From assembly GCA_028705775.1 (NCBI GenBank), contig JAQWCW010000004.1:62001-126000 (forward strand): a DNA stretch of 64,000 bases, written 5' to 3'. The translations under genes and the position numbers were made by a program. Under the pieces are notes generated by a model that worked only from the letters and a program-made list of their open reading frames with translations, made no database searches and had not been told where the DNA came from. The stretch is from Eubacteriales bacterium. Lineage in GTDB: Bacteria; Bacillota; Clostridia; Christensenellales; Aristaeellaceae. Positions 16,558 through 36,216 of the stretch are shown in pieces. Within the stretch, counting starts at the first letter, position 1, and each line of letters begins with the position of its first letter.

Positions 16558-17445
16558 TTATAGAGCCGGAAAGACCTGCAACGTCAAAAGCTTTGAGAGG
16601 TCGCTGTTTCGATAGCCGCGTTCGGTTTTGATGTAGATAATTTTGCTAATCACAGTTCGGAGCAGAGCGCTTTGCTCCTCCGCGCTGGTGGTGCGCTCCC
16701 AGACGTCGAGGACGTGTTTTATTTCGTCGGTAAGACCGCGAATTCGTTCTTCGGGGGGCGCGGGCTGGCTGTCAAGTGCGGCAAGCTCGTTTTTTATATC
16801 CGCTTCACGCTGTTCAAGCTCTGCGTTTCGCGCTAAGTAGGTTTCGGTCGAGTATACGCCCTGTTCGAGCAAGTCGCAGATTTTATTGCGCTGTTCGGCA
16901 ACGCGCCGCAGCTGTATATTGTAAGCGCTTTTTTTCTGCTCGTTGCGGTTGTCCGTGGCGGTTTCGCTGTTGACGGGCGCGAGGCAGATATTATTTAGCC
17001 ATGAGTGCAGGGTATTTATCAGCGCTTCAAAAACATAGTCCGCGATGATTCCTGACGTCGGGCAGTCCTGAGTCAGGCATTTGTAAAAAAAGCGGTTGCG
17101 GTGGATGTCGGGCGACAAAATCATTACGTTTCCGCATTTCGAGCAGTACATAAGCCCTGCAAGGGGGTTGACGTGCTTACGGTTGTCGCTTACGAGGCGC
17201 GGGTTGCTTTTCAGCCGCGCTTGCACGGCGTCGAATAGCTCCTGAGATATTATCGCAGGGTGGATGCCTTTTGCGATAATCGGTTCATCCGACCTTTGGC
17301 GCGATTCGACGGTTGCTCCGTTCACGACTTCGATATGTTTCAGGCGCTTGCCCCATCTGATATATCCTGCGTAAAGCGGGTTTGACAGTATACTCCATAC
17401 TGCCGACGGCGTGAACTTCGCGCCGCTGCCGGTGCGAAAGCCCAT
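16558..17445 (-). CDS. large serine recombinase/integrase, 5'-truncated
   Basis: The C-terminal 295 residues of a large serine integrase. Present are most of the recombinase domain (FTPSAVWSILSNPLYAGYIRWG), a zinc ribbon (CSKCGNVM, then C-x5-C at YKCLTQDCP), a coiled coil rich in Glu/Arg (about 170-260) and a hydrophobic tail. The whole N-terminal resolvase domain with its catalytic serine is missing; normal members have about 480-550 residues. Recognisable homology stops at GFRT, just before the first ATG, where the DNA passes into the MuF gene of the opposite strand. It is a fragment and almost certainly inactive for strand exchange. Its position next to attL is normal for an integrase gene. 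Confidence 0.88.
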   Translation of the reverse strand: MGFRTGSGAKFTPSAVWSILSNPLYAGYIRWGKRLKHIEVVNGATVESRQRSDEPIIAKGIHPAIISQELFDAVQARLKSNPRLVSDNRKHVNPLAGLMYCSKCGNVMILSPDIHRNRFFYKCLTQDCPTSGIIADYVFEALINTLHSWLNNICLAPVNSETATDNRNEQKKSAYNIQLRRVAEQRNKICDLLEQGVYSTETYLARNAELEQREADIKNELAALDSQPAPPEERIRGLTDEIKHVLDVWERTTSAEEQSALLRTVISKIIYIKTERGYRNSDLSKLLTLQVFPAL

Positions 17446-17499: not shown

Positions 17500-18498
17500 A
17501 TGTTCGAAAACCTGATGATGGGCAGAACGAGCGATGAAACGTATCGCGAGCTGTACAAGCTCAGTCAGTCAGACGAGCTTGCCACAAACCGCCTTATCCG
17601 CACGGAAAGCGCATATGCCGCCAATCAGGCAATCGCGCAGGCATACGAGGACGCAGGCTTTGAGCGCTACGTTTTTGTTTCGGCGTTTGAGGCAAGAACC
17701 TGCCCTAAATGCGGCGCTATGGACGGCGAAAGCTTCCCGCTTTCCGAAAAGAAGGTGGGCAAAAATTACCCGCCCGTTCATCCTTGGTGCAGATGTACAA
17801 CAAAGCCCGACGACGAGGACTTGAAAGCGCTCGAAAAGGATTCCTCCCGCTGGGCGCGCGACCCCGAAACCGGCGAGTTCGTGAAGGCTCGGGGCGATAT
17901 GACGTATAAGGAGTGGAAGGCGGAGCAGGAGCGCATTCACGGCGAGAAGTCATTCAGCGCAATGCAGAAGAAGGTCTGGAATCTGAAAAGAGACAAGAAG
18001 CAGCTCGAAAAGTATCAAAAACTTATCGGGCTGAACAGGTTCACGCAAGATATTAAGGCTTTTCAGAATATGAAATACGGCGATAAGGAAGTCTATAGTC
18101 TTGTGAAGCTTGATTATCGCCGTCAGCTTACATTGAAAAAATGCCCTAATCTTGCGCTTCCGAATGCAGGACAGGCGACTATTGCCGATACGAAGTTTAC
18201 AGGGTATCTGTTTAATCCTGAGAACAAGAAAGGATGGGTAAAAGGCGTTGCTTTTACAAGCCGTTTAGGGTATGATATAAGTAACTGGCAGGAGCTTCAA
18301 AAGGAGCTGCTCGCCTGTGCGACAAAATATCCGGCTATACGCGGAGAAACAAATGAGCATGGCACTAAGCACACCCAAAAAGCGGTGTTATACGGGAAAA
18401 AAGATAAGCCTGCAAATGTTGTTATCGGGTGGAAATGCAAAGACGAAAAGTCTTGGATGACAACCACGTACATTAGGGAGGTAAGCAAGGATGATTAA
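17500..18498 (+). CDS. MuF-type minor head protein fused to a DUF6883-like toxin domain (5'-truncated)
   Basis: The N-terminal part (about residues 25-103) is the phage Mu F / SPP1 gp7 minor head domain, with RTESAYAANQA, two CxxC-like pairs (TCPKCGAMDG, HPWCRCT) and no N-terminal half. A charged helical linker follows (135-200). Residues about 215-330 form a separate domain with LPNAGQATIADTKFTGYLFNPE and HGTKHTQKAV that resembles DUF6883, a C-terminal domain seen in polymorphic toxin systems. MuF fusions to toxin domains are a known class of phage-borne effectors, carried into a cell with phage DNA. The toxin part is visibly AT-richer than the head genes, a sign of separate acquisition. The next gene overlaps by eight bases and looks like its immunity gene. 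Confidence 0.72.
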   Translation: MFENLMMGRTSDETYRELYKLSQSDELATNRLIRTESAYAANQAIAQAYEDAGFERYVFVSAFEARTCPKCGAMDGESFPLSEKKVGKNYPPVHPWCRCTTKPDDEDLKALEKDSSRWARDPETGEFVKARGDMTYKEWKAEQERIHGEKSFSAMQKKVWNLKRDKKQLEKYQKLIGLNRFTQDIKAFQNMKYGDKEVYSLVKLDYRRQLTLKKCPNLALPNAGQATIADTKFTGYLFNPENKKGWVKGVAFTSRLGYDISNWQELQKELLACATKYPAIRGETNEHGTKHTQKAVLYGKKDKPANVVIGWKCKDEKSWMTTTYIREVSKDD

Positions 18499-18685
18499 GC
18501 AGTTTAGTGAGGTTAAGCTAAAGGACGGGGCGATTGGCTCTGTTATGGACGTGTACACTACTCCTTATGAAGCCTATGACGTTGATATTGGGTCGCCTGA
18601 CCCATCTGTTCCGCTTCCTAAGGATTTTGTGAGAACGGTCACTCCTGATGAGATTGATTCTGTTCTTTGGGAGCCAAAAGACTGA
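18491..18685 (+). CDS. DUF4926-like immunity protein
   Basis: A 64-residue protein starting MIKQFSEVKLKDGAIGSV, with the short SH3-like beta pattern of DUF4926, a family often found directly downstream of DUF6883 domains. Its ATG overlaps the toxin stop by eight bases behind GGGAGG, so the two are made together. A cytoplasmic antidote that binds the toxin domain is inferred. Base composition is as AT-rich as the toxin domain and unlike the flanking phage genes. The call rests on context and a short sequence, so family membership should be regarded as probable only. Confidence 0.62.
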   Translation: MIKQFSEVKLKDGAIGSVMDVYTTPYEAYDVDIGSPDPSVPLPKDFVRTVTPDEIDSVLWEPKD

Positions 18686-23729: not shown

Positions 23730-26700
23730 ATGGATTTAGGAGATATTCAGTTTACGCTGTCGGTTCAGACCGGCGCGCTGATGGAGGGCTTGAGTCAGGC
23801 GTCCGAAGCGCTTGCGGAGTTTGCCGAGGCGCAAAGGAACGGGGGCAACGGTGCAGAGGCAGCCGCTCAGAAGATGGACGCGGCAATGCGCAGGATGGGC
23901 GAAACCGCCTCGCAGAGCGGAAAAGTAGCCGCCGGAGCAGCCGACCAGACCGCCGTTGCAATGACTGCGCTTGCAGCCGCTTGCGCAAAAGCGTTTTCAA
24001 TGATTGTCGGCGCTGTGAATTCCGGCATTGAGGCAAGCAATAAATACAAGGCGGCGATTCAAGGCTTGCAGAGCGTTGCAACCGCAAAGGGTATCGGCTC
24101 AGACGCGATTCAGCGGGAGCTTGACGGGCTTGTCGACCAGTTTTTCTCCGCCGCCTCCGCTTCAACGGCGCTCAAAAATCTGCTTTCGCGCGGCTACAGC
24201 CTTGAGCAGGCGGTTAATTCAATCAATCGCCTCAAGGACGCCGCCGCGTTCGGTCGTCAGGCAAGCTACAGCTTGGGCGACGCGGTTGTTTCCGCAACCG
24301 AGGGCTTGAAAAACGAGAATTCTATCCTCGTAGATAACGCGGGCGTAACCAAAAATGTGTCGAAAATGTGGGACGATTACGCGCGCTCGATTGGCACGAC
24401 AGCAGGCAGCCTCACGCAGGCGCAGAAGATTGAAGCTGAGTATCAGGGCATTATGAGCGAAACCTCCGCTCAGGTGGGCGACCTAGCAAAGCTTTCAGAC
24501 ACGCTCGCAGGCTCGCAAGCCGAATCGCAGGCTAAAACGGTCGAGCTGTCGCAGGCTTTGGGCGAGAGCATGACGCCCTCCGTTATGCTCGCTACCGAGG
24601 CGTGGAATTCGCTTCTGGGCTTGATGTCGCAGTTTGTCGCGCAGAATCCGTCTGTTGTCGCGGGAGTAACAACTACGATTGGCGTTGTTACGGGGCTTGG
24701 CGCTTGCGTTTCCGGCATAAGGGCGCTTACAAAGGCGTTTGAATACCTTAAAATCGCAGGCTCTACAATCGGCTGGCTTGCCGCAATCGGCGCGGCTATC
24801 GGGCTTTTCGTAGGCATTATTGACAGCATAAATAGAGCAAGTCAAGCCGCCGCAAAGGCGCAGCAGGAAGCGCTCGAAGCATCCAAAAGCAAGGCTGACG
24901 AGCTGGCAAAAGAGAACTCGGCGCTTGAGAAGCTTGCAGCGCGCTACGAAACGCTTTCGGGGCTGACCGACCGCTCGCGCGCCGAAACCGCCGAAATGCG
25001 CTCGATTGAGCAGCAGCTGCAATCAACCTACGGGCTTACCGGCGCGGCGCTTTCGGGGCTTGCTGGGAGCTACGACGAAGTAATCAAAAAAATCCGCGAG
25101 AAAATAACCGCGCAAAAGGAAGAACAGCTGCAAGAATCAAAAACGCAGATGCGCATTATGCAAAGCCAGCTTGAGGACAATCCATATTATGAGGAAATGC
25201 AAAATCTTGAGCGGTATAAGCGCGATTTGCAAACTTACGCCGATACAATAAATAATAATCAGCTGTTTAATAACCTTGATTTTTCGGCGCAGGAGGAAAT
25301 CAAGGCTAAATACAATGAAATCAATGATGAAATCGCGGTTGCAACGGACAATCTTGAAAAAATGGACGCTAAATACCGCGAGGAGTATATGAGCCTGTCG
25401 GGGGAAATGGCAGACCTTTCCGTGCAGATTCCAGTACTTGAATTTGAAATTGCCAACGGCTCGGCAAGCGAAATGACAAGCGCGATTGTTGGCGCGTTTT
25501 CAGGCGCGATTAACGCCGCAGCGCCGGGGCTGTCGGGGGCTTACTCGGACGCAATCAATTCGATTTTGTCCGACGCGGACCTGTCAAAAACAGCAGAAAA
25601 CGCCGACGCGCTTTTCGATACGCTTACGGGCGGGGGAGTGCTTACAGCAGACGAGCAAGGTCAACTGGCAGATTATATATATTCGATTTGGGCAACGCTT
25701 TACAAAAACATCCCGAAAGAATTTTCGGGGGACAAAGACGGGCTTATGAGTCAGATGTTTTCGCAGCTTTTCAGCGTTACGCCTGAGATGGACAACCTTG
25801 CGAGTTGGATTGCAAGCTTTTCAGAGGGCAACACGCAGCGCCTTTTTGAAACAGACCAGCTTGAAAGCTACACGTCTAAGGTAAACGACGCGGCGAAAGC
25901 CTACGAAACGGCGGCAAAAGGCTCGCTTGAATTGCAGGAGGCAATGAAACAAGCACAAGCCGCGCAGGAAGAAGCCGGTCAAGGCACTCAGGAGTACGAT
26001 GACGCCTTGGCTGAGTACAACGCTTTGTCAGCCGAGCTTAACGCAAAAAACCTTGAAAGCGAGGCGGCTTTTGAAGCGCTTTCGGAGATTATTGCAACGG
26101 TAAGCGAGCTTTATCCTGATTTGACAAGCGGGAGCGAGGCTGAAAATCAGGCGCAGGCAAGTCTTGTTGCCGCGTACAGGCGGGGCGACGCCGCCCTCCA
26201 GCTGCGCGGCAGGACGCTCAAAAGCACCACAAAGGCAGTAGCAAGCAGCACAAAGGAATTCAACAAATACACCGCGAGTCAGAAAGACCTGCAAAAATGG
26301 ATTGACGACCAGACGGACAGCCTTGCTTGGATGAACCGCGAGATTGCCAACAGCAGCGAGCTTTTCAGCGATGTAAGCGGCATAAAGGCTCAGATTGACG
26401 CGGGCGCTCAGCTCGACGCGACTCAAACGGGCTTGATTGCTTCCCTCGGTCTTATGGGTTCAACCGCGCAGGAAACCTCCGATAATTGCGCGGCTTGGCT
26501 TGCGCGCATGGCAGATACGCTTCAAGGCGAGATAGGCAAAGCGGAGAGCGCGTCAAACGATTTGAGCGATTCGCTTTCCTTCATTTCCGCAATGCACCCC
26601 GACATAAAAATTGGCACGTCCTCCGCAATCGCCGCGATGAAAGCGGTTGTCGCTCAGGCAATCATCACAATCGGCTACCTTAACAAGGCGGGCATTCCGA

Positions 26701-27044
26701 CCGGCGGCGGCGGCGGCGGCGGGGGCGGCAACAGCAAGTACCAGAAGGACATAACCGCGCTTGAGCACCTGAAAAAGCTTGAGCAGGTGGATAACGAGCA
26801 GGAGCTTGAGCGCCTGCTTGAATTGCAGCAGAAGTACACGAACCGGCGCGGCAAGAGTACGCTCAAGAAAGCCGACCAGCGCGACCTTGAGGAGCGGCTA
26901 TTTGAGGTTCGCGAAAAGATTCGCGAGGAAGCCTTTAACGCCGACATGGACGAGTACGAGCACCGAAAGCGCATGGGCGAAATGACCGTAGAGCAGGAAA
27001 TCGAAAGCCCGAAATCACCGTCAAGGTTTCGCTTCTCCCGCTGA
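23730..27044 (+). CDS. tail tape measure protein, 3'-truncated
   Basis: 1,104 residues of a tape measure protein: an N-terminal helical region with a TMP core domain (about residues 80-300), two hydrophobic helices (about 310-380), long coiled coils rich in Ala/Glu/Gln and a run of ten glycines (GGC repeats, 26702-26731). Its length sets tail length. The natural C-terminal repeat appears to begin at HRKRMGEMTVEQEIE and then breaks. From about 27000 the frame runs only 14 further residues (SPKSPSRF and so on) while another frame continues with tail-lysin sequence. The end is therefore a deletion junction, not a genuine C-terminus. Confidence 0.85.
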   Translation: MDLGDIQFTLSVQTGALMEGLSQASEALAEFAEAQRNGGNGAEAAAQKMDAAMRRMGETASQSGKVAAGAADQTAVAMTALAAACAKAFSMIVGAVNSGIEASNKYKAAIQGLQSVATAKGIGSDAIQRELDGLVDQFFSAASASTALKNLLSRGYSLEQAVNSINRLKDAAAFGRQASYSLGDAVVSATEGLKNENSILVDNAGVTKNVSKMWDDYARSIGTTAGSLTQAQKIEAEYQGIMSETSAQVGDLAKLSDTLAGSQAESQAKTVELSQALGESMTPSVMLATEAWNSLLGLMSQFVAQNPSVVAGVTTTIGVVTGLGACVSGIRALTKAFEYLKIAGSTIGWLAAIGAAIGLFVGIIDSINRASQAAAKAQQEALEASKSKADELAKENSALEKLAARYETLSGLTDRSRAETAEMRSIEQQLQSTYGLTGAALSGLAGSYDEVIKKIREKITAQKEEQLQESKTQMRIMQSQLEDNPYYEEMQNLERYKRDLQTYADTINNNQLFNNLDFSAQEEIKAKYNEINDEIAVATDNLEKMDAKYREEYMSLSGEMADLSVQIPVLEFEIANGSASEMTSAIVGAFSGAINAAAPGLSGAYSDAINSILSDADLSKTAENADALFDTLTGGGVLTADEQGQLADYIYSIWATLYKNIPKEFSGDKDGLMSQMFSQLFSVTPEMDNLASWIASFSEGNTQRLFETDQLESYTSKVNDAAKAYETAAKGSLELQEAMKQAQAAQEEAGQGTQEYDDALAEYNALSAELNAKNLESEAAFEALSEIIATVSELYPDLTSGSEAENQAQASLVAAYRRGDAALQLRGRTLKSTTKAVASSTKEFNKYTASQKDLQKWIDDQTDSLAWMNREIANSSELFSDVSGIKAQIDAGAQLDATQTGLIASLGLMGSTAQETSDNCAAWLARMADTLQGEIGKAESASNDLSDSLSFISAMHPDIKIGTSSAIAAMKAVVAQAIITIGYLNKAGIPTGGGGGGGGGNSKYQKDITALEHLKKLEQVDNEQELERLLELQQKYTNRRGKSTLKKADQRDLEERLFEVREKIREEAFNADMDEYEHRKRMGEMTVEQEIESPKSPSRFRFSR

Positions 27045-27091
27045 AAGGCTCGCCGCTCTGGAAATGGTACGGAGAGCTTGAGCGCTTCGCC

Positions 27092-27973
27092 TTGGGCGAC
27101 GGCGTTCTTTTCCATCACTCCGCAATCAATGCGGATATAGCGCTTCGTATGGAGGAGCGCACCTATGACGTTCTTCGGGGCGAAAACACGCAGGTAACGC
27201 TCGGCAGCGCAAAACAGACGCTTGCGTTCACGCTGGCAGGCATAAGCGGGGCGGTTGCGACCGTTAAACGCGTGACCAACGAGAAGGGCAACCTCCGCTC
27301 AGAGCGCCTTGAGGGGGCAATAAACGCCCTTAAAAATCAGCTTCTCGCCTCCGCAGGCTACGCAAGCCCGACGGTAAACAGCAAGAAGGGCTTGCTTTTT
27401 GAAAACACAATGGCAGGCTCGGGCTTCGGCGCGCTGTATCTGGGTCCGGGCATATTTTCAATCGCGAACGAAAAGAACGCGGACGGTTCGTGGTCTTGGC
27501 GCACCTTCGGCACTGGCGGCGGCTTTACCGCAGATGAAATCACGGCAGGGCTTATTTCCGCAGACAGAATCAACGCAAGCGAGCTGGCAGCCGATTCGGG
27601 CTTTGTCGGCGAGCTTGTGACCTCGCTTATCGCCTCGCCGCTCGGCAAAAGCCTCAACCTTGCCTCCAACACCGCGATAACCGCAATCGTCGGGGACATA
27701 TCAAGCCTCAGCTTCCGCGTTGTCGTAACTCCGTCAAAAACCATCCTGTCAAGCGACGCGGACGAAATAACGCTTACCGCAACCGTGTTTGACGTTGGCG
27801 GCGACATAACCGCTGACCTTGACGCGGAAAGCTTTACTTGGACAAGGCTTAGCGGCGATACGGCAAGCGATGAAACGTGGAACGCGGAAAATCACACGGG
27901 CAAAACGCTCACAATCGGCGCAAGCGCGGTTGAGAGGTATGCCACATACACCTGCACCGTGGAAACGGCATAA
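27092..27973 (+). CDS. tail-associated (Tal/prophage endopeptidase-type) protein, 5'-truncated
   Basis: The C-terminal part of a siphovirus tail-tip protein. Homology begins upstream of any start codon: from about 27005 this frame reads PEITVKVSLLPLKGS, and it continues through ALGDGVLFHH, TYDVLRGENTQVTLG, LFENT, LYLGPGIFSIA and WRTFGTGGGFTADEI, the typical end of the tail endopeptidase family. A BIG/Ig-like domain fills the last 100 residues or so. The N-terminal half and the preceding distal tail (Dit) gene are missing, removed by the deletion that also cut the tape measure gene. The TTG at 27092 is only the first possible codon and has no ribosome site. Confidence 0.72.
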   Translation: MGDGVLFHHSAINADIALRMEERTYDVLRGENTQVTLGSAKQTLAFTLAGISGAVATVKRVTNEKGNLRSERLEGAINALKNQLLASAGYASPTVNSKKGLLFENTMAGSGFGALYLGPGIFSIANEKNADGSWSWRTFGTGGGFTADEITAGLISADRINASELAADSGFVGELVTSLIASPLGKSLNLASNTAITAIVGDISSLSFRVVVTPSKTILSSDADEITLTATVFDVGGDITADLDAESFTWTRLSGDTASDETWNAENHTGKTLTIGASAVERYATYTCTVETA

Positions 27974-27989
27974 CGAAAGGATGAAATGA

Positions 27990-28349
27990 ATGCGCGAAAT
28001 CACAATAACGGTAAACAGCGCAGGGAAACTGACTGCGAGCAATACAACCCTCGGCTATGCGGGGGAACACCTCGCAGTCAAGGTAAACTTCGACGTTTCC
28101 GCGTGGGCAGAGGTTTTCCCCGGCGCGGAAATTGATAACGTATCAGTTCTGGCGACAATCAACAACGCGCGCGGCTATGCGCTTGTAGAGTCGAAGCCGC
28201 AGGACGGCATTGTGACATGGCTGCCCTCCGCTGCCGATATGGTTGCCTCAAGGAATGGGGCGCGCAGCGGAAATACTGCCTCAAGGCGAATTGGATTGAC
28301 CCTACGCAATCATGCAATGTCGTTTCCGCGCGTCTGGCGCGTCAGATGA
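27990..28349 (+). CDS. baseplate/tail-fibre N-terminal domain, 3'-truncated
   Basis: From 27990 the frame encodes about 87 residues like the N-terminal domain of BppU-type baseplate/fibre proteins (REITITVNSAGKLTASNTTL, GYALVESKPQDGIVTWLPSA). At about 28250 it becomes a nonsense tail (RNGARSGNTASRRIG) that overlaps the CotH gene in another frame. The rest of the original protein is lost at a deletion junction. It starts 17 bases after the tail-lysin remnant with a good GAAAGGATGAAATG ribosome region. Confidence 0.6.
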   Translation: MREITITVNSAGKLTASNTTLGYAGEHLAVKVNFDVSAWAEVFPGAEIDNVSVLATINNARGYALVESKPQDGIVTWLPSAADMVASRNGARSGNTASRRIGLTLRNHAMSFPRVWRVR

Positions 28350-29776
28350 TGGATGATTACGCCGCTGTTGCCGCCGCGCCGTGTCATGGGCTTATAGACG
28401 GCTTCCCCGCGCTGGTCTGGCTCAACGACGACTGCACGGGACTTTATACGCTCAACATCCCCAAAGACGAGTGGATGTTTAACATGGACCCCGAAAGCAA
28501 TTTTAACCACATCGTCCTTTGTGCAGAGGAGCAGAGCGGTTCGTGCGCGTTCACGGAGGCAGCAGACGCGCAGGCTTGGTCGATTGAGGTCGGCGAGGAC
28601 ACCGAAGAAAACATCATAGCGAAGTTCAACCGCCTTGTAAGCTTTATCAAGGACACAGACGATAAGACGACCTTCAAAAACAACGCGAACGCTTACTTTA
28701 ACGTAGACGCGGCACTCAACTATTACCTTTTCTGCTACGTTGCTTGCGCCGTTGACAATCTCGGAAAAAATATGCTCATGGTGACCTATGACGGCTCGCA
28801 TTGGATACCGTCGCTCTACGACCTTGACGGGCTTTGGGGCGTTGGCTATGACGGTAAAACAAAATACCCCGCAACCGCTCCATGCCCCGGCGCTTATCAA
28901 TGCACAACGTCCCTCTTGTGGCAGAAGCTTGAATCATTTTATGCCGCAGAACTTAAAGAACGCTATGCGCTCCTCCGTCAGAGCGCGCTTTCGCAGGATA
29001 ACATCCTCAAGGCGTTCAGGGAGTTCATCGGCTCGATTCCTCCGCAGCTCTATGAGTACAATACGCGCCGTTGGCTAGGAATGCGCGAAATGCGCCGAAC
29101 GCTTGAGCAGATGGAGGAATGGATTCCTCTGCGCCTCGCTTACGTTGATACCGCTATACAGCAAATCGGCGGCGGCGCGGTCATCGACCCTGAAATATGG
29201 GACGGCTCAAAGCTGACCGACACGTTCAGCTCATCGGGCGGAGCTGCCGAGTATATCAACACGGAGTTTATACCGTTTTCGGACGATAATACAGCGTGGA
29301 CGATTCTGGCGCGTGTGAGCAAATCGGCGGTAAACGATACCATTTACTTCTCGTCTTTCTGCGAGGCTTCAACGCCCGGAAACATGGGTATGATTGCTCG
29401 CGTTGTTCCGGCAAGCTGGCTTGGTCAGATAGGCGACGCGCCGACCTTACATATCCAGGTTATACAGCCCTCTACTGGCACTATTTCGCATACTTGGGCT
29501 GTAGCTGATTTGACGGGCGATTATCTCGATATAGCCATCACACGCGCCGAAGACGCCTATAAAATCTACTTTAATAATGCGCTCGTTGAGCAGGGCAACG
29601 CGCCTACGCTCTCCGCAGTAACAGAGACGCTGCTCATCGGCGCGCAATGGGATTCGACCCGCGAGGCGGTTATGCGCACAGGGACGATGACAATACCCTA
29701 TTTTGAGGTTGTCAATTCAACCTTGGACGCGGCAGCAATCGCCGCGAAGTTCGCGACAGCGCCCACCGCCGAGTAA
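28217..29776 (+). CDS. CotH-kinase-domain tail protein with LamG-like domain, 5'-truncated
   Basis: A 519-residue frame. About residues 13-230 resemble the CotH kinase family: QRKYCLKANWIDPTQ, DGFPALVWLNDDCTGLYTLN, PKDEWMF, NYYLFCYVACAVDNLGKNM and VTYDGSHWIPSLYDLDG. Bacillus CotH is a protein kinase that phosphorylates spore coat proteins; phage tail proteins carrying this domain occur in gut Clostridia. The last 180 residues look like a LamG/concanavalin-type sugar-binding domain. Homology begins at KEWGAQRKYC, right at the junction with the fibre gene, and the first dozen residues are read from fibre DNA out of frame. The N-terminal part is missing, so activity is doubtful. Confidence 0.75.
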   Translation: MAALRCRYGCLKEWGAQRKYCLKANWIDPTQSCNVVSARLARQMMDDYAAVAAAPCHGLIDGFPALVWLNDDCTGLYTLNIPKDEWMFNMDPESNFNHIVLCAEEQSGSCAFTEAADAQAWSIEVGEDTEENIIAKFNRLVSFIKDTDDKTTFKNNANAYFNVDAALNYYLFCYVACAVDNLGKNMLMVTYDGSHWIPSLYDLDGLWGVGYDGKTKYPATAPCPGAYQCTTSLLWQKLESFYAAELKERYALLRQSALSQDNILKAFREFIGSIPPQLYEYNTRRWLGMREMRRTLEQMEEWIPLRLAYVDTAIQQIGGGAVIDPEIWDGSKLTDTFSSSGGAAEYINTEFIPFSDDNTAWTILARVSKSAVNDTIYFSSFCEASTPGNMGMIARVVPASWLGQIGDAPTLHIQVIQPSTGTISHTWAVADLTGDYLDIAITRAEDAYKIYFNNALVEQGNAPTLSAVTETLLIGAQWDSTREAVMRTGTMTIPYFEVVNSTLDAAAIAAKFATAPTAE

Positions 29777-29788
29777 GGGGGCGAAACG

Positions 29789-31183
29789 ATGAAAGCAAGC
29801 GGCAGTACGACCGTATACAACACAATCAAGGACTTAATCCCGTCCGCAACCGCGCCTCCCGTCAAAGCGACAGGTCAGCTCTGGCTCGACACGACCAACA
29901 ACACGCTTTACAAGTGGAGCGGGTCAGAGTGGGTCAGGGTTATTGCGCAGGCGCTGCACACAAGCAAAGTCGCAGTTACTGATGAGGGTATCGACCTTGA
30001 AACGGACGGCGCGCTCAATATCAAATCGGGCGCGAGGATGAATCTCAAGTCGGGCGGCGCGCTTAACGTGGAGGGCGGCACGGTTGACATAAACGCCGAA
30101 AGCACGTTCAAGGTCGCGGCGGGCGCAGAATCCGGCGAATTCATGAAGATTCAGAATGATTCTGAAACAGTCATGTTCGGAGGCGCAGACGACGCGGAGG
30201 GGACAAACGCAGGGTTTGCCCTCTCCCGCAACGGGCGTTTTGACTGCAATGACGCGCATATCAAAGGCTCGGTCGAGCTGACGGACGGCGCAGACTTCAA
30301 GCTTGAGGACGGCGCAACCGCTTCGTTCGGCGAAATCGCGCGGCAGACGTTCATAACCGCGCTGTTTGGCGGTTCAAGCGTAAGCGTTGTCCCGTGCGGT
30401 TCTGGCATTGCAACGCGCGGCGAGCTTCGGGCGCTTCTGGGCATTTATTCCGGTCAGGGCGCTCCGTCCGATACGGTCACAAGCCCGCTGTACGGCGATA
30501 TTTATCTCAAGCTTGCGAGCGCGACCGAAACGCCGTCATCCTCCGCGAGCTTCACGCTTTCGGGCTATCAGCGCGAGGTCATAAGGCACAAAAAAACCGT
30601 TGTCAAAAGGCTCAACGGCGTAACGCAATCCTCCTCCACGTCCACAACCAACACGATTACGGGCGCGACAGAGACTTCTTCCTCCGTTTGGAGCTATAAC
30701 AGCGGCACTTACGAGTACGACAGTTCGAGCTCCTCCTCCACTTCGGGCGGCGTGGTGACGACCACTACGACCTTTAAGCAGAGACAGACATATTATTGGG
30801 CGGTCTGCCCTGCTCCGACCTCCGCGCAGCTTGCCGCGTCGCCCGTCGAAAGCTCAACGATTACGTTCACACTCGGCTCAAACCCTAACACAAACTATAA
30901 TTTGTACCTCTCGACAGGCTCGCAGGGCAAGGACGGCACGAGAACGCTCATCGCGCAGAAAAAGATTGAAGCGACAACGGTTGAGTTCGACCTTTCAAAC
31001 GTGATTGAAACGCTCAAGGGCGCGGGAACGACCGCTTATTATTTCAGCCTTGAGCCTGCCACATCGGGCGCAATGAACACCGCGCGCACAGTCACAACCG
31101 CCTCGATGGGCGTTGACTACATCGGCGGCACGGCGACAAACGAGCTGTACGCGTATAACGGTTCTGCATGGAATCTGATTTAA
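29789..31183 (+). CDS. phage tail fibre/baseplate protein, beta-helical
   Basis: A 464-residue virion protein. After a capping segment (GQLWLDTTNNTLYKWSGSEWV, a motif of fibre proteins) comes a repeat of IxxxGAxNxxxGG type (about residues 70-110, DGALNIKSGARMNLKSGG) typical of beta-helices or beta-prisms, then Ser/Thr-rich strands. The end, ELYAYNGSAWNLI, repeats the same W-containing cap motif. Receptor binding is likely. It is intact, between the CotH-type gene and the lysis cassette. Confidence 0.65.
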   Translation: MKASGSTTVYNTIKDLIPSATAPPVKATGQLWLDTTNNTLYKWSGSEWVRVIAQALHTSKVAVTDEGIDLETDGALNIKSGARMNLKSGGALNVEGGTVDINAESTFKVAAGAESGEFMKIQNDSETVMFGGADDAEGTNAGFALSRNGRFDCNDAHIKGSVELTDGADFKLEDGATASFGEIARQTFITALFGGSSVSVVPCGSGIATRGELRALLGIYSGQGAPSDTVTSPLYGDIYLKLASATETPSSSASFTLSGYQREVIRHKKTVVKRLNGVTQSSSTSTTNTITGATETSSSVWSYNSGTYEYDSSSSSSTSGGVVTTTTTFKQRQTYYWAVCPAPTSAQLAASPVESSTITFTLGSNPNTNYNLYLSTGSQGKDGTRTLIAQKKIEATTVEFDLSNVIETLKGAGTTAYYFSLEPATSGAMNTARTVTTASMGVDYIGGTATNELYAYNGSAWNLI

Positions 31184-31195
31184 GGAGGCGGTGAA

Positions 31196-32089
31196 ATGAT
31201 TAATGCGGCTGACTTGGTAGAAAAGTTTGAATACGTCCTCTCTCTCGGCGCGGGGTACATCTACGGCGCGTCAGGGCAGACTTGGACGCAAGCAAAGCAA
31301 AATGCCGCTACTCGCTCAATGACAGTCAAGCACGGCGCAAAATGGATAGGCAAGCGCGTATGGGACTGCTCGGGGATGTTCTCGTGGACGTTTCGCGAGC
31401 TTGGCGGCTACTGCTATCACGGCTCTAACACAATATGGGAAAGCTTTGTACTGAAAAGCGCGAGGGGGAAGCTGATAGACGGGCGCAGAGAAGATAGCAA
31501 ACCGCTTAAGGCGGGAACAGCCGTATTCCTTGTTGATAGCGCCGGTTGCAGACATCATGTAGGGCTGTACATCGGTAACGGGTACTGCATTGAGGCTAAA
31601 GGCACGGCTTACGGCGTTGTAAAAAGCAAAATCACACATTGGCACGAGTACGGGGAATTAATCGGCGTTGACTACGCAAACGCCGCAGTAACCGAAGAAA
31701 GCGGGGCGGCATACATGGAAACTTTGAAGGCAGGGTCAAGGGGCGAAAACGTGCGCACGGCGCAGGCGCTTCTCAACGTATGGGCGCAGGACGTAGGCGG
31801 CGTTGCGATTACTGAGGACGGCGCTTTCGGGACTGCGACAAAGGCGGCAGTAATGGCGTTTCAGAGCGCAAAGGCGCTTATGGTTGACGGCATTATCGGC
31901 ACGCAGACTTGGGCGGCATTGCAGGGCTTGCCTGACGCAGAGCCTGACAATACGGACGAGGGCGAAGCAGAGCCTGACGGAGAGGCAGAAACGGACAAGT
32001 TTGATAGAGTTAAGGAAGCAATAAAAGCCGCTCAGGACGCCCTAAAAACGGCGCAGAGCGTGATTGCGGCAATGGAGGCGAAAAGCTGA
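31196..32089 (+). CDS. endolysin: NlpC/P60-type peptidase with peptidoglycan-binding domain
   Basis: A 297-residue lysin. The N-terminal peptidase (about 1-165) shows the catalytic cysteine in WDCSGMFSWTFRELG and the histidine in RHHVGLYIGNGY. A PG_binding_1 domain follows (about 175-245, LKAGSRGENVRTAQALLN, DGAFGTATKAAVMAFQ, DGIIGTQTWAALQ), then an acidic linker and a C-terminal helix. It cleaves the peptide part of peptidoglycan to release phage. It has a strong AAGGAGG ribosome site, and its stop overlaps the next start by one base. Confidence 0.88.
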   Translation: MINAADLVEKFEYVLSLGAGYIYGASGQTWTQAKQNAATRSMTVKHGAKWIGKRVWDCSGMFSWTFRELGGYCYHGSNTIWESFVLKSARGKLIDGRREDSKPLKAGTAVFLVDSAGCRHHVGLYIGNGYCIEAKGTAYGVVKSKITHWHEYGELIGVDYANAAVTEESGAAYMETLKAGSRGENVRTAQALLNVWAQDVGGVAITEDGAFGTATKAAVMAFQSAKALMVDGIIGTQTWAALQGLPDAEPDNTDEGEAEPDGEAETDKFDRVKEAIKAAQDALKTAQSVIAAMEAKS

Positions 32090-33598: not shown

Positions 33599-33831
33599 GG
33601 TATCCCTCCTTCCGATGGTTGGGACGGCGGCGCGAGCGTTTATTACCGCCTTACACTTTCATGCTATGCCGCGCGGCGGAAGGTGTGAGAATATTAATGC
33701 AAATTCTGCTTTATACGGAATAATGCGGCAGGCTGAGTCGTTATTATTAGCAGAACCGGTTCTTGGCGCGATGGCGCGCGGTTCTGCGGTTTGGGCATAT
33801 ATGCTTACCGACTGCCCGAAAGGAGCAAAAA

Positions 33832-36216
33832 ATGAAACGCTTTATTCCGGTGCTGCTTGCTCTTGTGCTTGTGCTTCTTCTTCCCGTGTGCGCTTTTGCC
33901 GCGGAGGAGGAAACTGATTATGTGCGCGTTATGCGCCTGCGGCTTTATGAGGATGGAATTGACGGCGCATTAATGCCCGTTTCAAGCGATTCCGTCAATC
34001 TTGCCGTGCGCCCCTGCTCGCTGCTTGACGCTGAGCTGCCCGCGCTTGAGCGGCTTGAGGATGTAGGCAGCGACGCTCTCGGCGAGGTGAAGCTTATCCC
34101 GCTCGGAAGCGTTACAGCCACGGCGGAGGACGGAAGGCTTTATATCAAGGGGATTCAGCTTGACGCGGGCACATATGCCTGCCAGCTTGTTTTCTCGCCG
34201 TCCCTGCGCTCAAATATCATGATTGCCTCAACCTCGCCGTCCGGCATTCCCGCAAACGCCGAGATTGTTCCCGCAACGGCAATTTCGATTGATAAAAAGC
34301 TTGAAATGTATGCGGGCGACAAGCTTATGCTTCCGCTTACCTATGAGCCGACCGACGCCAACAGCTTCAATATCAAGGCGAGCTACGGCGCGAAAAACGT
34401 GCTTGATTTTTCGAGCGGAATTCTTACCGCGCTCAAAAAGGGCGAGAGCTATCTCTATCTTTCGCCCGAGGGCGGACGCAGGTCTACTCTTTATGTAAAC
34501 GTTCGCCAGCGCGCCGAGAGCGTCAGCGTCAACAAGACCGCTTTCACGATTGCCGAAGGCAAGAGCGAAAGGATTACCGCGAGCGTTCTTCCTGCCAACG
34601 CGAATAACAAAAAGCTCGTTTACACCTCGTCCAACGAGGAGGTTGCGACCGTTAACGCCAACGGAACAGTCAAGGCGGTTTCGCTCGGCGAATGCGTCAT
34701 CACCGTTGCCAGCGCGGATAACCCCGCGGCTTCTGCCGAGTGCGACGTCAGCGTAACCGTGCTTGTCTCGAAGGTTAAAATGCAAGAGCCGGAGGTAATG
34801 TATGTCGGCGAAACTCAGCAGCTTGTATTCTCCGTTGAGCCGGATAACGCGAGCGCCAAGTCCCTTACCTTCAAATCCGGCAACACCAAAGCCGCAACCG
34901 TTGACGAAAACGGCGTTATAACCGCCGTAGGGCGCGGCAAGGCGACAATCACCGCCACCTCAACGGACGGCGGAAGGCGCAGCACCTATGTCACCGTAAC
35001 CGTAAAGCAGCAGCCCACCGGAATATCGCTTGCCAAAACGGAGCTGAGCCTGAATACGGGCATAAAGTCAACCCTGAGCGCAAAGGTATTGCCCAGCACG
35101 GCTAACGAGACGGATTTGGTCTGGTCGTCGAGTGATACGTCAATCGCAACCGTGACCGAAAGGGGAACCGTTGCGGGCGTATACCCCGGCACTTGCGTCG
35201 TTACCGTTCGCAGCAAGGCGTTCCCTGAAATCTTCGCGGAGTGCAACGTGACGGTCAGCCAGCCCGTAACCAAAATCAACTTCGAGCTTTCCTCCCTCAG
35301 CCTCAACGTAGGCGAGAAGGAGCGGCTCAGCTGGGCTGTTCAGCCCGCTTACGCTACGAATCAGGCTGTAACCTTCACGAGCGCCGACACGTCGGTTGCA
35401 ACCGTTGAAGCGGACGGAACTGTTCATGCAATAAAGCGCGGCAAAACCACGATTACCGTAAAGGCTACCGACGGAAGCCGCGTAACCTCCAGAATAACCG
35501 TGAATGTAATTCAGCCGCTTTTCGGAATATCCATGCGGAATACCCAAAAGACGGTCGGCGTCAACAAAGCGGCTTATGTGTATGTTGACCTTAATCCGTC
35601 AAACGCTTCCAACTCCCATATCACATGGTCGAGCGCCGATACCTCCATTGCAAAGGTTTCCGGCTCGTCCGTCAAGGGGCGCGTTGTCGGCGTGGCTTGG
35701 GGCGATACGACGCTCACGGCTGTCAGCGAGGAAGGCGGCTACACCGACGTTATGACCATCCATGTGGGCGATTATAACGAGGCGGTAAGCATTTACGAGC
35801 TGGATATGTACTTTGACGACGCGGGAGTCAAGATTCCATATATCCGCTTCCGCAACGAATCCAACTTTGAAATTACGCGCGTTAATTTCTACATCTACGG
35901 TCAGGATGAGTACGGCAACGAGGTTCCGCTCTGGCGCGATTATACGCAGGGCGAGGGCAGATATTCCCGCGCCCTTATGCCCGGGAATAGGAGCGACAGC
36001 CGATACTTCCGCTATGATAAGGATTACGATTTCGAGCATTGCGAATACCTGCGCGTGTGCATCGTAAGCTACGAAATGGCGGACGGAACGCTGTACCGCA
36101 TATCTCCGAACCATTACCCCACAAAGGAATGGGAATCCGATATTTATCTGTCCGAAATCGAAAACCCGCAGCCGCAGATAACCCTTGAGCCGCCGACAGA
36201 CCCGTCTATAGGCTGA
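33832..36216 (+). CDS. secreted protein with six BIG2 (Ig-like) repeats
   Basis: About 794 residues with a signal peptide (KRFIPVLLALVLVLLLPVCAFA, cleavage near AFA-AEE). After an N-terminal beta domain of about 130 residues there are six BIG2 repeats of about 80 residues, each with a SxxxSxATVxxxGTVxAxxxG-like core. A C-terminal beta domain ends in a Pro-rich tail. No LPxTG or SLH anchor was seen, so it is secreted or held by other contacts. BIG2 domains serve as stalks for adhesion or scaffolds. The start is ATG 33832 behind GAAAGGAG; the longer upstream frame lacks a signal peptide and ribosome site. Confidence 0.85.
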   Translation: MKRFIPVLLALVLVLLLPVCAFAAEEETDYVRVMRLRLYEDGIDGALMPVSSDSVNLAVRPCSLLDAELPALERLEDVGSDALGEVKLIPLGSVTATAEDGRLYIKGIQLDAGTYACQLVFSPSLRSNIMIASTSPSGIPANAEIVPATAISIDKKLEMYAGDKLMLPLTYEPTDANSFNIKASYGAKNVLDFSSGILTALKKGESYLYLSPEGGRRSTLYVNVRQRAESVSVNKTAFTIAEGKSERITASVLPANANNKKLVYTSSNEEVATVNANGTVKAVSLGECVITVASADNPAASAECDVSVTVLVSKVKMQEPEVMYVGETQQLVFSVEPDNASAKSLTFKSGNTKAATVDENGVITAVGRGKATITATSTDGGRRSTYVTVTVKQQPTGISLAKTELSLNTGIKSTLSAKVLPSTANETDLVWSSSDTSIATVTERGTVAGVYPGTCVVTVRSKAFPEIFAECNVTVSQPVTKINFELSSLSLNVGEKERLSWAVQPAYATNQAVTFTSADTSVATVEADGTVHAIKRGKTTITVKATDGSRVTSRITVNVIQPLFGISMRNTQKTVGVNKAAYVYVDLNPSNASNSHITWSSADTSIAKVSGSSVKGRVVGVAWGDTTLTAVSEEGGYTDVMTIHVGDYNEAVSIYELDMYFDDAGVKIPYIRFRNESNFEITRVNFYIYGQDEYGNEVPLWRDYTQGEGRYSRALMPGNRSDSRYFRYDKDYDFEHCEYLRVCIVSYEMADGTLYRISPNHYPTKEWESDIYLSEIENPQPQITLEPPTDPSIG

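Follow-up and report, generated by a model that had tools for sequence, protein, structure and literature searches.

The prophage remnant and its gene content

Between approximately positions 16558 and 32699, the window (the whole stretch of 64,000 nucleotides that was analyzed) carries a prophage remnant. On its left it is flanked by genes for an oxaloacetate decarboxylase complex, and on its right by an ORF on the reverse strand with no match to a phage family (32765-33598). The leftmost gene of the remnant (16558-17445, reverse strand) is a C-terminal fragment of a serine integrase, in which the Recombinase family matches from position 31 of 102, the zinc ribbon scores below its cut-off, and no resolvase domain was matched. 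The other genes described here are on the forward strand: a MuF minor head protein without about 200 of its N-terminal residues and with a C-terminal DUF6883 domain (17500-18498); a tape-measure protein (23730-27044) whose C-terminus is replaced at a junction near 27005; a C-terminal fragment of Tal (27005-27973), matching Prophage_tail at positions 194-248 of 250 with a score below the family cut-off; a probable fibre N-terminal (anchor) ORF (27990-28349); an ORF with a truncated CotH kinase domain (28217-29776); a tail-associated protein (29789-31183) with a 26% identical relative in a second remnant of the same genome; and an endolysin with NlpC/P60 and PG_binding_1 domains (31196-32089).

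Two junctions join fragments of different genes. Near 17440, the integrase C-terminus abuts the MuF C-terminus, and near 27005 the tape-measure gene runs into the Tal C-terminus, which is read in another frame. No portal or terminase match was found among the scanned ORFs of the stretch; across the genome, the portal (PF05133) and large terminase (PF04466) families matched on contig C44 only. Of the whole integrase, terminase, portal and Tal expected of a functional prophage, none was found in this element with the families and ORFs scanned.

Two further observations concern the surroundings of these genes. A small ORF after the MuF gene (18491-18685, forward strand) has no Pfam match. Phage-borne polymorphic toxins include MuF proteins whose C-terminal domains vary, and the MuF-DUF6883 protein and the small ORF could be the remnant of a toxin/immunity pair. 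Beyond the right flank, positions 33763-36216 (forward strand) encode a large protein with repeats that by eye resemble bacterial Ig-like (Big_2 type) domains.

A CotH-family domain in the tail module

The ORF at 28217-29776 encodes 519 amino acids, and Pfam CotH (PF08757) matches its residues 17-310 with an E-value of 1.5e-15 and a score of 58 bits, where the family cut-off is 23.8, so the match is not due to chance. PHROG families of unknown function, among them phrog_9391 (E 3.1e-21), cover the same part of the protein. The sequence-only reading had described this gene as a CotH-type kinase on a phage tail protein, beginning at 28250. Its family assignment holds, as does its placing in the tail region, since the ORF sits after the tape-measure and tail genes and before the endolysin; position 28250 is codon 12 of the ORF. 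The motifs on which it relied are present: KYCLKANWIDPTQ at residues 19-31 (28271-28309, forward strand), which the alignment and the model place as the last strand before helix C, DEWMF at residues 84-88 and YDLDG at residues 201-205. The ORF thus encodes a CotH-family domain in a phage tail module.

Structural comparison gave the same family. A profile built from 12 relatives, with the window protein left out, found Bacillus cereus CotH (5jd9/5jda) among PDB sequences with an E-value of 1.4e-7. The protein's AlphaFold model matched both of these entries with a Z-score of 24.9 (for 5jda, with an rmsd of 3.3 over 289 aligned residues, which take in the low-confidence residues 1-18), and the next row of the comparison had a Z-score of only 10.3. 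Foldseek matched the model to 5jd9 (E 1.2e-9) over the present part of the kinase. The model has an average pLDDT of 65.5; between residues about 21 and 310 most values exceed 70, whereas most of residues 319-500 score under 50. Structure prediction had been proposed as a check on the kinase assignment; the fold is that of CotH and not a non-kinase one. The frame is open over 519 codons, with a codon-position GC content similar to that of the neighbouring genes, which would mean that the decay is of recent date or that a fragment may still be produced.

The region after the kinase domain (residues about 319-519) may be a LamG-like domain. The sequence-only reading had proposed a fusion to such a domain; a C-terminal domain is indeed present, but its tie to LamG is weak and indirect. 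The C-terminal ~200 residues have no Pfam or PHROG match of their own and no PDB sequence match. They share 26-27% identity with parts of three proteins from related genomes (L031, L034 and L036), and these parts, scanned alone, fall below the Laminin_G_3 cut-off (E 0.0039 to 0.046). Laminin_G_3 does match the three proteins well in other regions, their best-scoring stretches being different from those that resemble the window C-terminus. No match was found between this C-terminus and the cellular CotH-LamG proteins L044 and L045.

Loss of the first N-lobe strands

The PF08757 match of the window protein covers profile positions 34-322 of 322, positions 1-33 being absent. With the same profile, the match begins at position 1-4 in L048, L047, L008, L146, L148, L147, L151 and L044, and in L049 and L152 the best-matching stretches cover it in part. 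A QG...KN motif was found in 17/17 compared relatives (judged in NatCom_3357 on the full-length sequence) and is absent from the window protein. The lost part comprises the first strands before helix C, together with the QG loop and the most widely shared lysine of the family. In the model of the intact L008 domain, four strands (12-20, 25-37, 45-52 and 73-77) precede helix C, and the window model keeps the counterpart of only the last; Q35-G36 and K44 of L008 fall in the part missing from the window copy. The L008 model matches CotH with a Z-score of 29.6 over 334 residues, compared with 24.9 over 289 for the window. The N-lobe of the window copy is thus incomplete, without the QG loop and the KN/KS lysine. 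Because these are gone, the window copy is unlikely to be an enzyme and most likely represents a kinase-dead fragment.

The residues aligned to the catalytic site of the C-lobe are still present. Residues D180 to N185 (DNLGKN; 28754-28771, forward strand) align to the Asp228 region of CotH, and YDLDG, with D202 and D204 (28817-28831, forward strand), aligns to the Asp251 region. When the solved CotH is aligned, D180 pairs with the Asp in NFDGFVHN, and D202 pairs with the first of the two Asp in WDYD. Counted by hand, the paired positions are residues 224 and 247 of the chain and lie 23 apart, as do Asp228 and Asp251. We infer that D180 and D202 correspond to Asp228 and Asp251, either of which, when replaced, inactivates Bacillus subtilis CotH, as described in PMC7821199. 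In an alignment of the window protein with nine genome or MAG loci and eight phage records, K23, D180, N185, D202 and D204 were invariant (18/18 sequences).

The loss of catalytic aspartates or lysine had been named as evidence against a kinase, and the outcome is divided: the aspartates are kept, the KN lysine is lost, and another lysine, K23, is kept. A lysine before N or S is common to the relatives, B. cereus CotH and the host's own L001, and falls in the segment lost from the window. We considered K23 as the ATP lysine, but the corresponding residue is Asn in B. cereus CotH and Arg in L001, suggesting that K23 may not have this role.

The upstream ORF and the probable junction near 28248

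The upstream ORF (27990-28349) enters the kinase DNA and stops there out of frame, and the first start of the kinase ORF lies inside the DNA of the upstream ORF. The two overlap by 133 bases (28217-28349), with the kinase in the -1 frame relative to the upstream ORF. From the frame change and the missing segment, the junction of a deletion that removed the fibre shaft and the first kinase strands would lie at approximately 28240-28256; the anchor was probably fused to the kinase near 28248, in a different frame.

Assignment of the upstream ORF as the anchor is weak. It has no Pfam or PHROG family; in a single comparison with L048, an intact CotH fibre, residues 21-49 of both proteins aligned in the same register at 34% identity (E 5e-4), and no match was found to the N-termini of L008 and L146. 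This similarity is consistent with the upstream ORF being the anchor of the same fibre protein. BppU_N occurs with a full CotH domain within one protein in the MAG locus L008 and in Lacticaseibacillus phage R3.3, and in the Pfam scan it was absent from both the CotH ORF and the out-of-frame upstream ORF. A BppU anchor was rejected for the upstream ORF, which is unlike the BppU_N-bearing L008 and L146; the N-terminus of L048 itself has no BppU_N match.

Relatives in phages and related genomes

The sequence-only reading had suggested surveying phage tail genes for CotH domains, and such genes were found: 13 records of the phage collection (some duplicates) encode relatives that are 24-31% identical, eight of which were examined. 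In Klebsiella phage phi4.1 the CotH gene comes after that of tail protein I, where P2-like phages have their fibre. In Lactobacillus phage JNU_P11 the Tal position is taken by an M23 peptidase gene, and the CotH gene is the second one behind it. Bacteroides phage BT-TP2 (L153, 30972-43850) encodes a CotH-like protein of 2262 aa whose gene adjoins a reverse transcriptase gene, a pairing as in a diversity-generating retroelement (DGR). The neighbours of the CotH gene in Bacillus phage G give no tail context, and the record of a wine phage is unannotated. Among 300 genomes of the same family, 37 had a match; of the 16 strongest regions, L047, L048 and L049 look phage-like, and most others, judged by eye, resemble cellular proteins that are secreted.

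Close relatives of the whole CotH gene were found neither by DNA in the phage collection nor, with the single protein as query, in viral contigs, and the genome collection searched contained no second genome of the genus. No relative close enough to map the deletions was found in these collections. Relatives of the tape-measure protein are few and too distant to map its deletion. Those of the major capsid protein (MCP) are plentiful and 50-74% identical (the best 80 of 92 were kept). When the prophage genes were compared by tblastn with 82 viral loci and four CotH loci, the MCP-bearing contigs matched head and connector genes only and none had the intact tail order, for which reason the junction positions are approximate.

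A scan of IMG/VR with an alignment yielded 40 loci; 12 were dropped as identical over the centre or contained in another, leaving 28 that form 26 clusters at 90% identity. Q35, G36, K44, K77 and the equivalents of window D180, N185 and D202 are kept in all 28 domains, and 27 of the 28 also keep the second Asp of YDxD; host genes may be present on some of the contigs. The scan patterns lie within DGFP and YTxNIPKD, where conservation results from the way the loci were selected, which is not the case at the sites listed here. Since the residues equivalent to D180, N185 and D202 are conserved, intact phage CotH domains are probably active.

Other prophage elements and CotH genes of the same genome

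Contig C44 (L145, 47500-63301) carries a second deletion-scarred prophage, which keeps terminase and portal genes. The apparent start of its scaffold gene (by eye) runs out of frame into a fragment that has no Pfam match and, by position alone, may be a fibre end; relatives of the window's 29789-31183 gene and lysin follow the junction. We considered whether the window, with head and tail genes, and C44, with terminase and portal, could be one split phage and ruled this out, as C44 has its own lysin, its own 29789-type gene and its own out-of-frame junction. Contig C16 has a lysin and a Tal of its own. A region of this contig (L144, 13500-33000) is a separate prophage tail module that looks intact within the stretch, comprising a long tape-measure gene, an ORF that by eye resembles Dit, a Tal of 1329 aa, a fibre, a lysin and a serine integrase of 524 aa. 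Three more CotH genes of the genome, on C32, C1 and C12 (L001-L003), are apparently cellular; L002 on C1 has an in-frame TAG.

Interpretation

We consider it highly likely that the window gene is a broken, kinase-dead CotH fibre pseudogene within a prophage that has decayed by at least three internal deletions. The ancestral prophage would have had a fibre gene encoding, in order, an anchor, a shaft, a CotH kinase domain and a C-terminal tip. One of the at least three deletions would have taken the shaft and the first N-lobe strands, leaving anchor and kinase in different frames. At most, the leftover product would be a kinase fragment with the C-terminal tip, most likely non-functional. Against this reading, the frame of the kinase ORF is open, D180, N185, D202, D204 and K23 are still present, and the anchor assignment is weak. 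The sequence-only reading had offered two roles for the domain. Modification of a receptor is unsupported for a copy that has lost the segment with the QG loop and the shared lysine. A structural leftover comes closer, in the sense of a broken gene in a decayed prophage, though not of a working structural domain.

The same junctions would arise if the true prophage were intact and three stretches of it had been collapsed during assembly. The assembly is a draft of 48 contigs in which a mis-join is possible, three separate junctions fall within one 16 kb element, and other contigs of the genome carry genes of the missing kinds (C44 a portal and a terminase, C16 a Tal). However, these genes belong to other elements, in which the counterparts of window genes are divergent (on C44, 41% identity for the lysin and 26% for the 29789-type gene; on C16, 35% for the lysin and 31% for Tal), and stepwise deletion is a usual fate of prophages. 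We regard an assembly artefact as unlikely and infer that the cause was genomic deletion and that the window protein is dead.

It is very improbable that the truncated protein works as a pseudokinase, an adhesin or fibre domain that would use the CotH fold as a scaffold. Its frame is open, residues about 21-310 are predicted mostly with pLDDT above 70, and a C-terminal domain is present, but there is no in-frame anchor and the neighbouring structural genes are broken. A -1 ribosomal frameshift joining the upstream ORF to the kinase fragment would suit the 133-base overlap and the relative frame, but is hardly credible, as the overlap contains no slippery heptamer by eye and is explained by the out-of-frame join, and the product would still be without the first strands.

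As what is most likely a broken gene in a dead prophage, the window copy itself is of little weight. The question it raises is why a kinase domain with near-invariant catalytic residues occurs in fibre-type proteins of phages so unlike each other as the siphoviruses of Lactobacillus and the P2-like phages of Klebsiella. ATP is scarce outside cells, which favours action during assembly in the infected cell. By analogy with CotH, which acts on CotB and CotG, the fibre kinase of the intact relatives probably acts there, where ATP is available, and its proposed substrates are its own fibre or neighbouring virion proteins. Tentatively, and with more doubt than confidence, the intact relatives could be a broad class of active, virion-borne kinases, with CotH domains attached to the tail-fibre proteins of phages that are unrelated to one another and infect Gram-positive as well as Gram-negative bacteria. 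Such kinases would phosphorylate proteins of the phage's own tail, or the host surface if another cofactor were used, and would thereby alter receptor binding; the window copy would then be the fossil of one.

Comparison with known systems

The remnant resembles cryptic, deletion-scarred prophages in its truncated integrase, fused fragments and packaging genes that were not found in the stretch, and no unusual difference from them was seen.

CotH domains in phage fibre-type proteins have already been published and are described as unstudied: gut-phage proteins with CotH and hypervariable C-type lectin domains are called "currently unstudied" in PMC8008677, and PMC4159848 lists CotH for six DGR target proteins. 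Among the literature matches listed, none was a functional study of a phage CotH fibre-type protein. The gut-phage CotH-lectin and DGR proteins are similar to the window protein in having CotH in a phage protein of receptor-binding type, but neither a lectin-type target nor a reverse transcriptase was noticed around the window gene, and its C-terminus is at best LamG-like.

CotH itself is placed near the FAM20 kinases in PMC9758233. The window copy shares with CotH kinases (PF08757; 5jd9/5jda; B. subtilis CotH) the fold of the part that is present and the aligned D, N and DxD of the C-lobe; it differs in missing the first N-lobe strands with QG...KN, and in belonging to a phage tail rather than a spore coat. 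Phages R3.3, JNU_P11, Klebsiella Gegevirus phi4.1, BT-TP2 and others likewise have CotH in a large protein, several of them at the tail-fibre position, and this group keeps the QG...KN that the window copy has lost.
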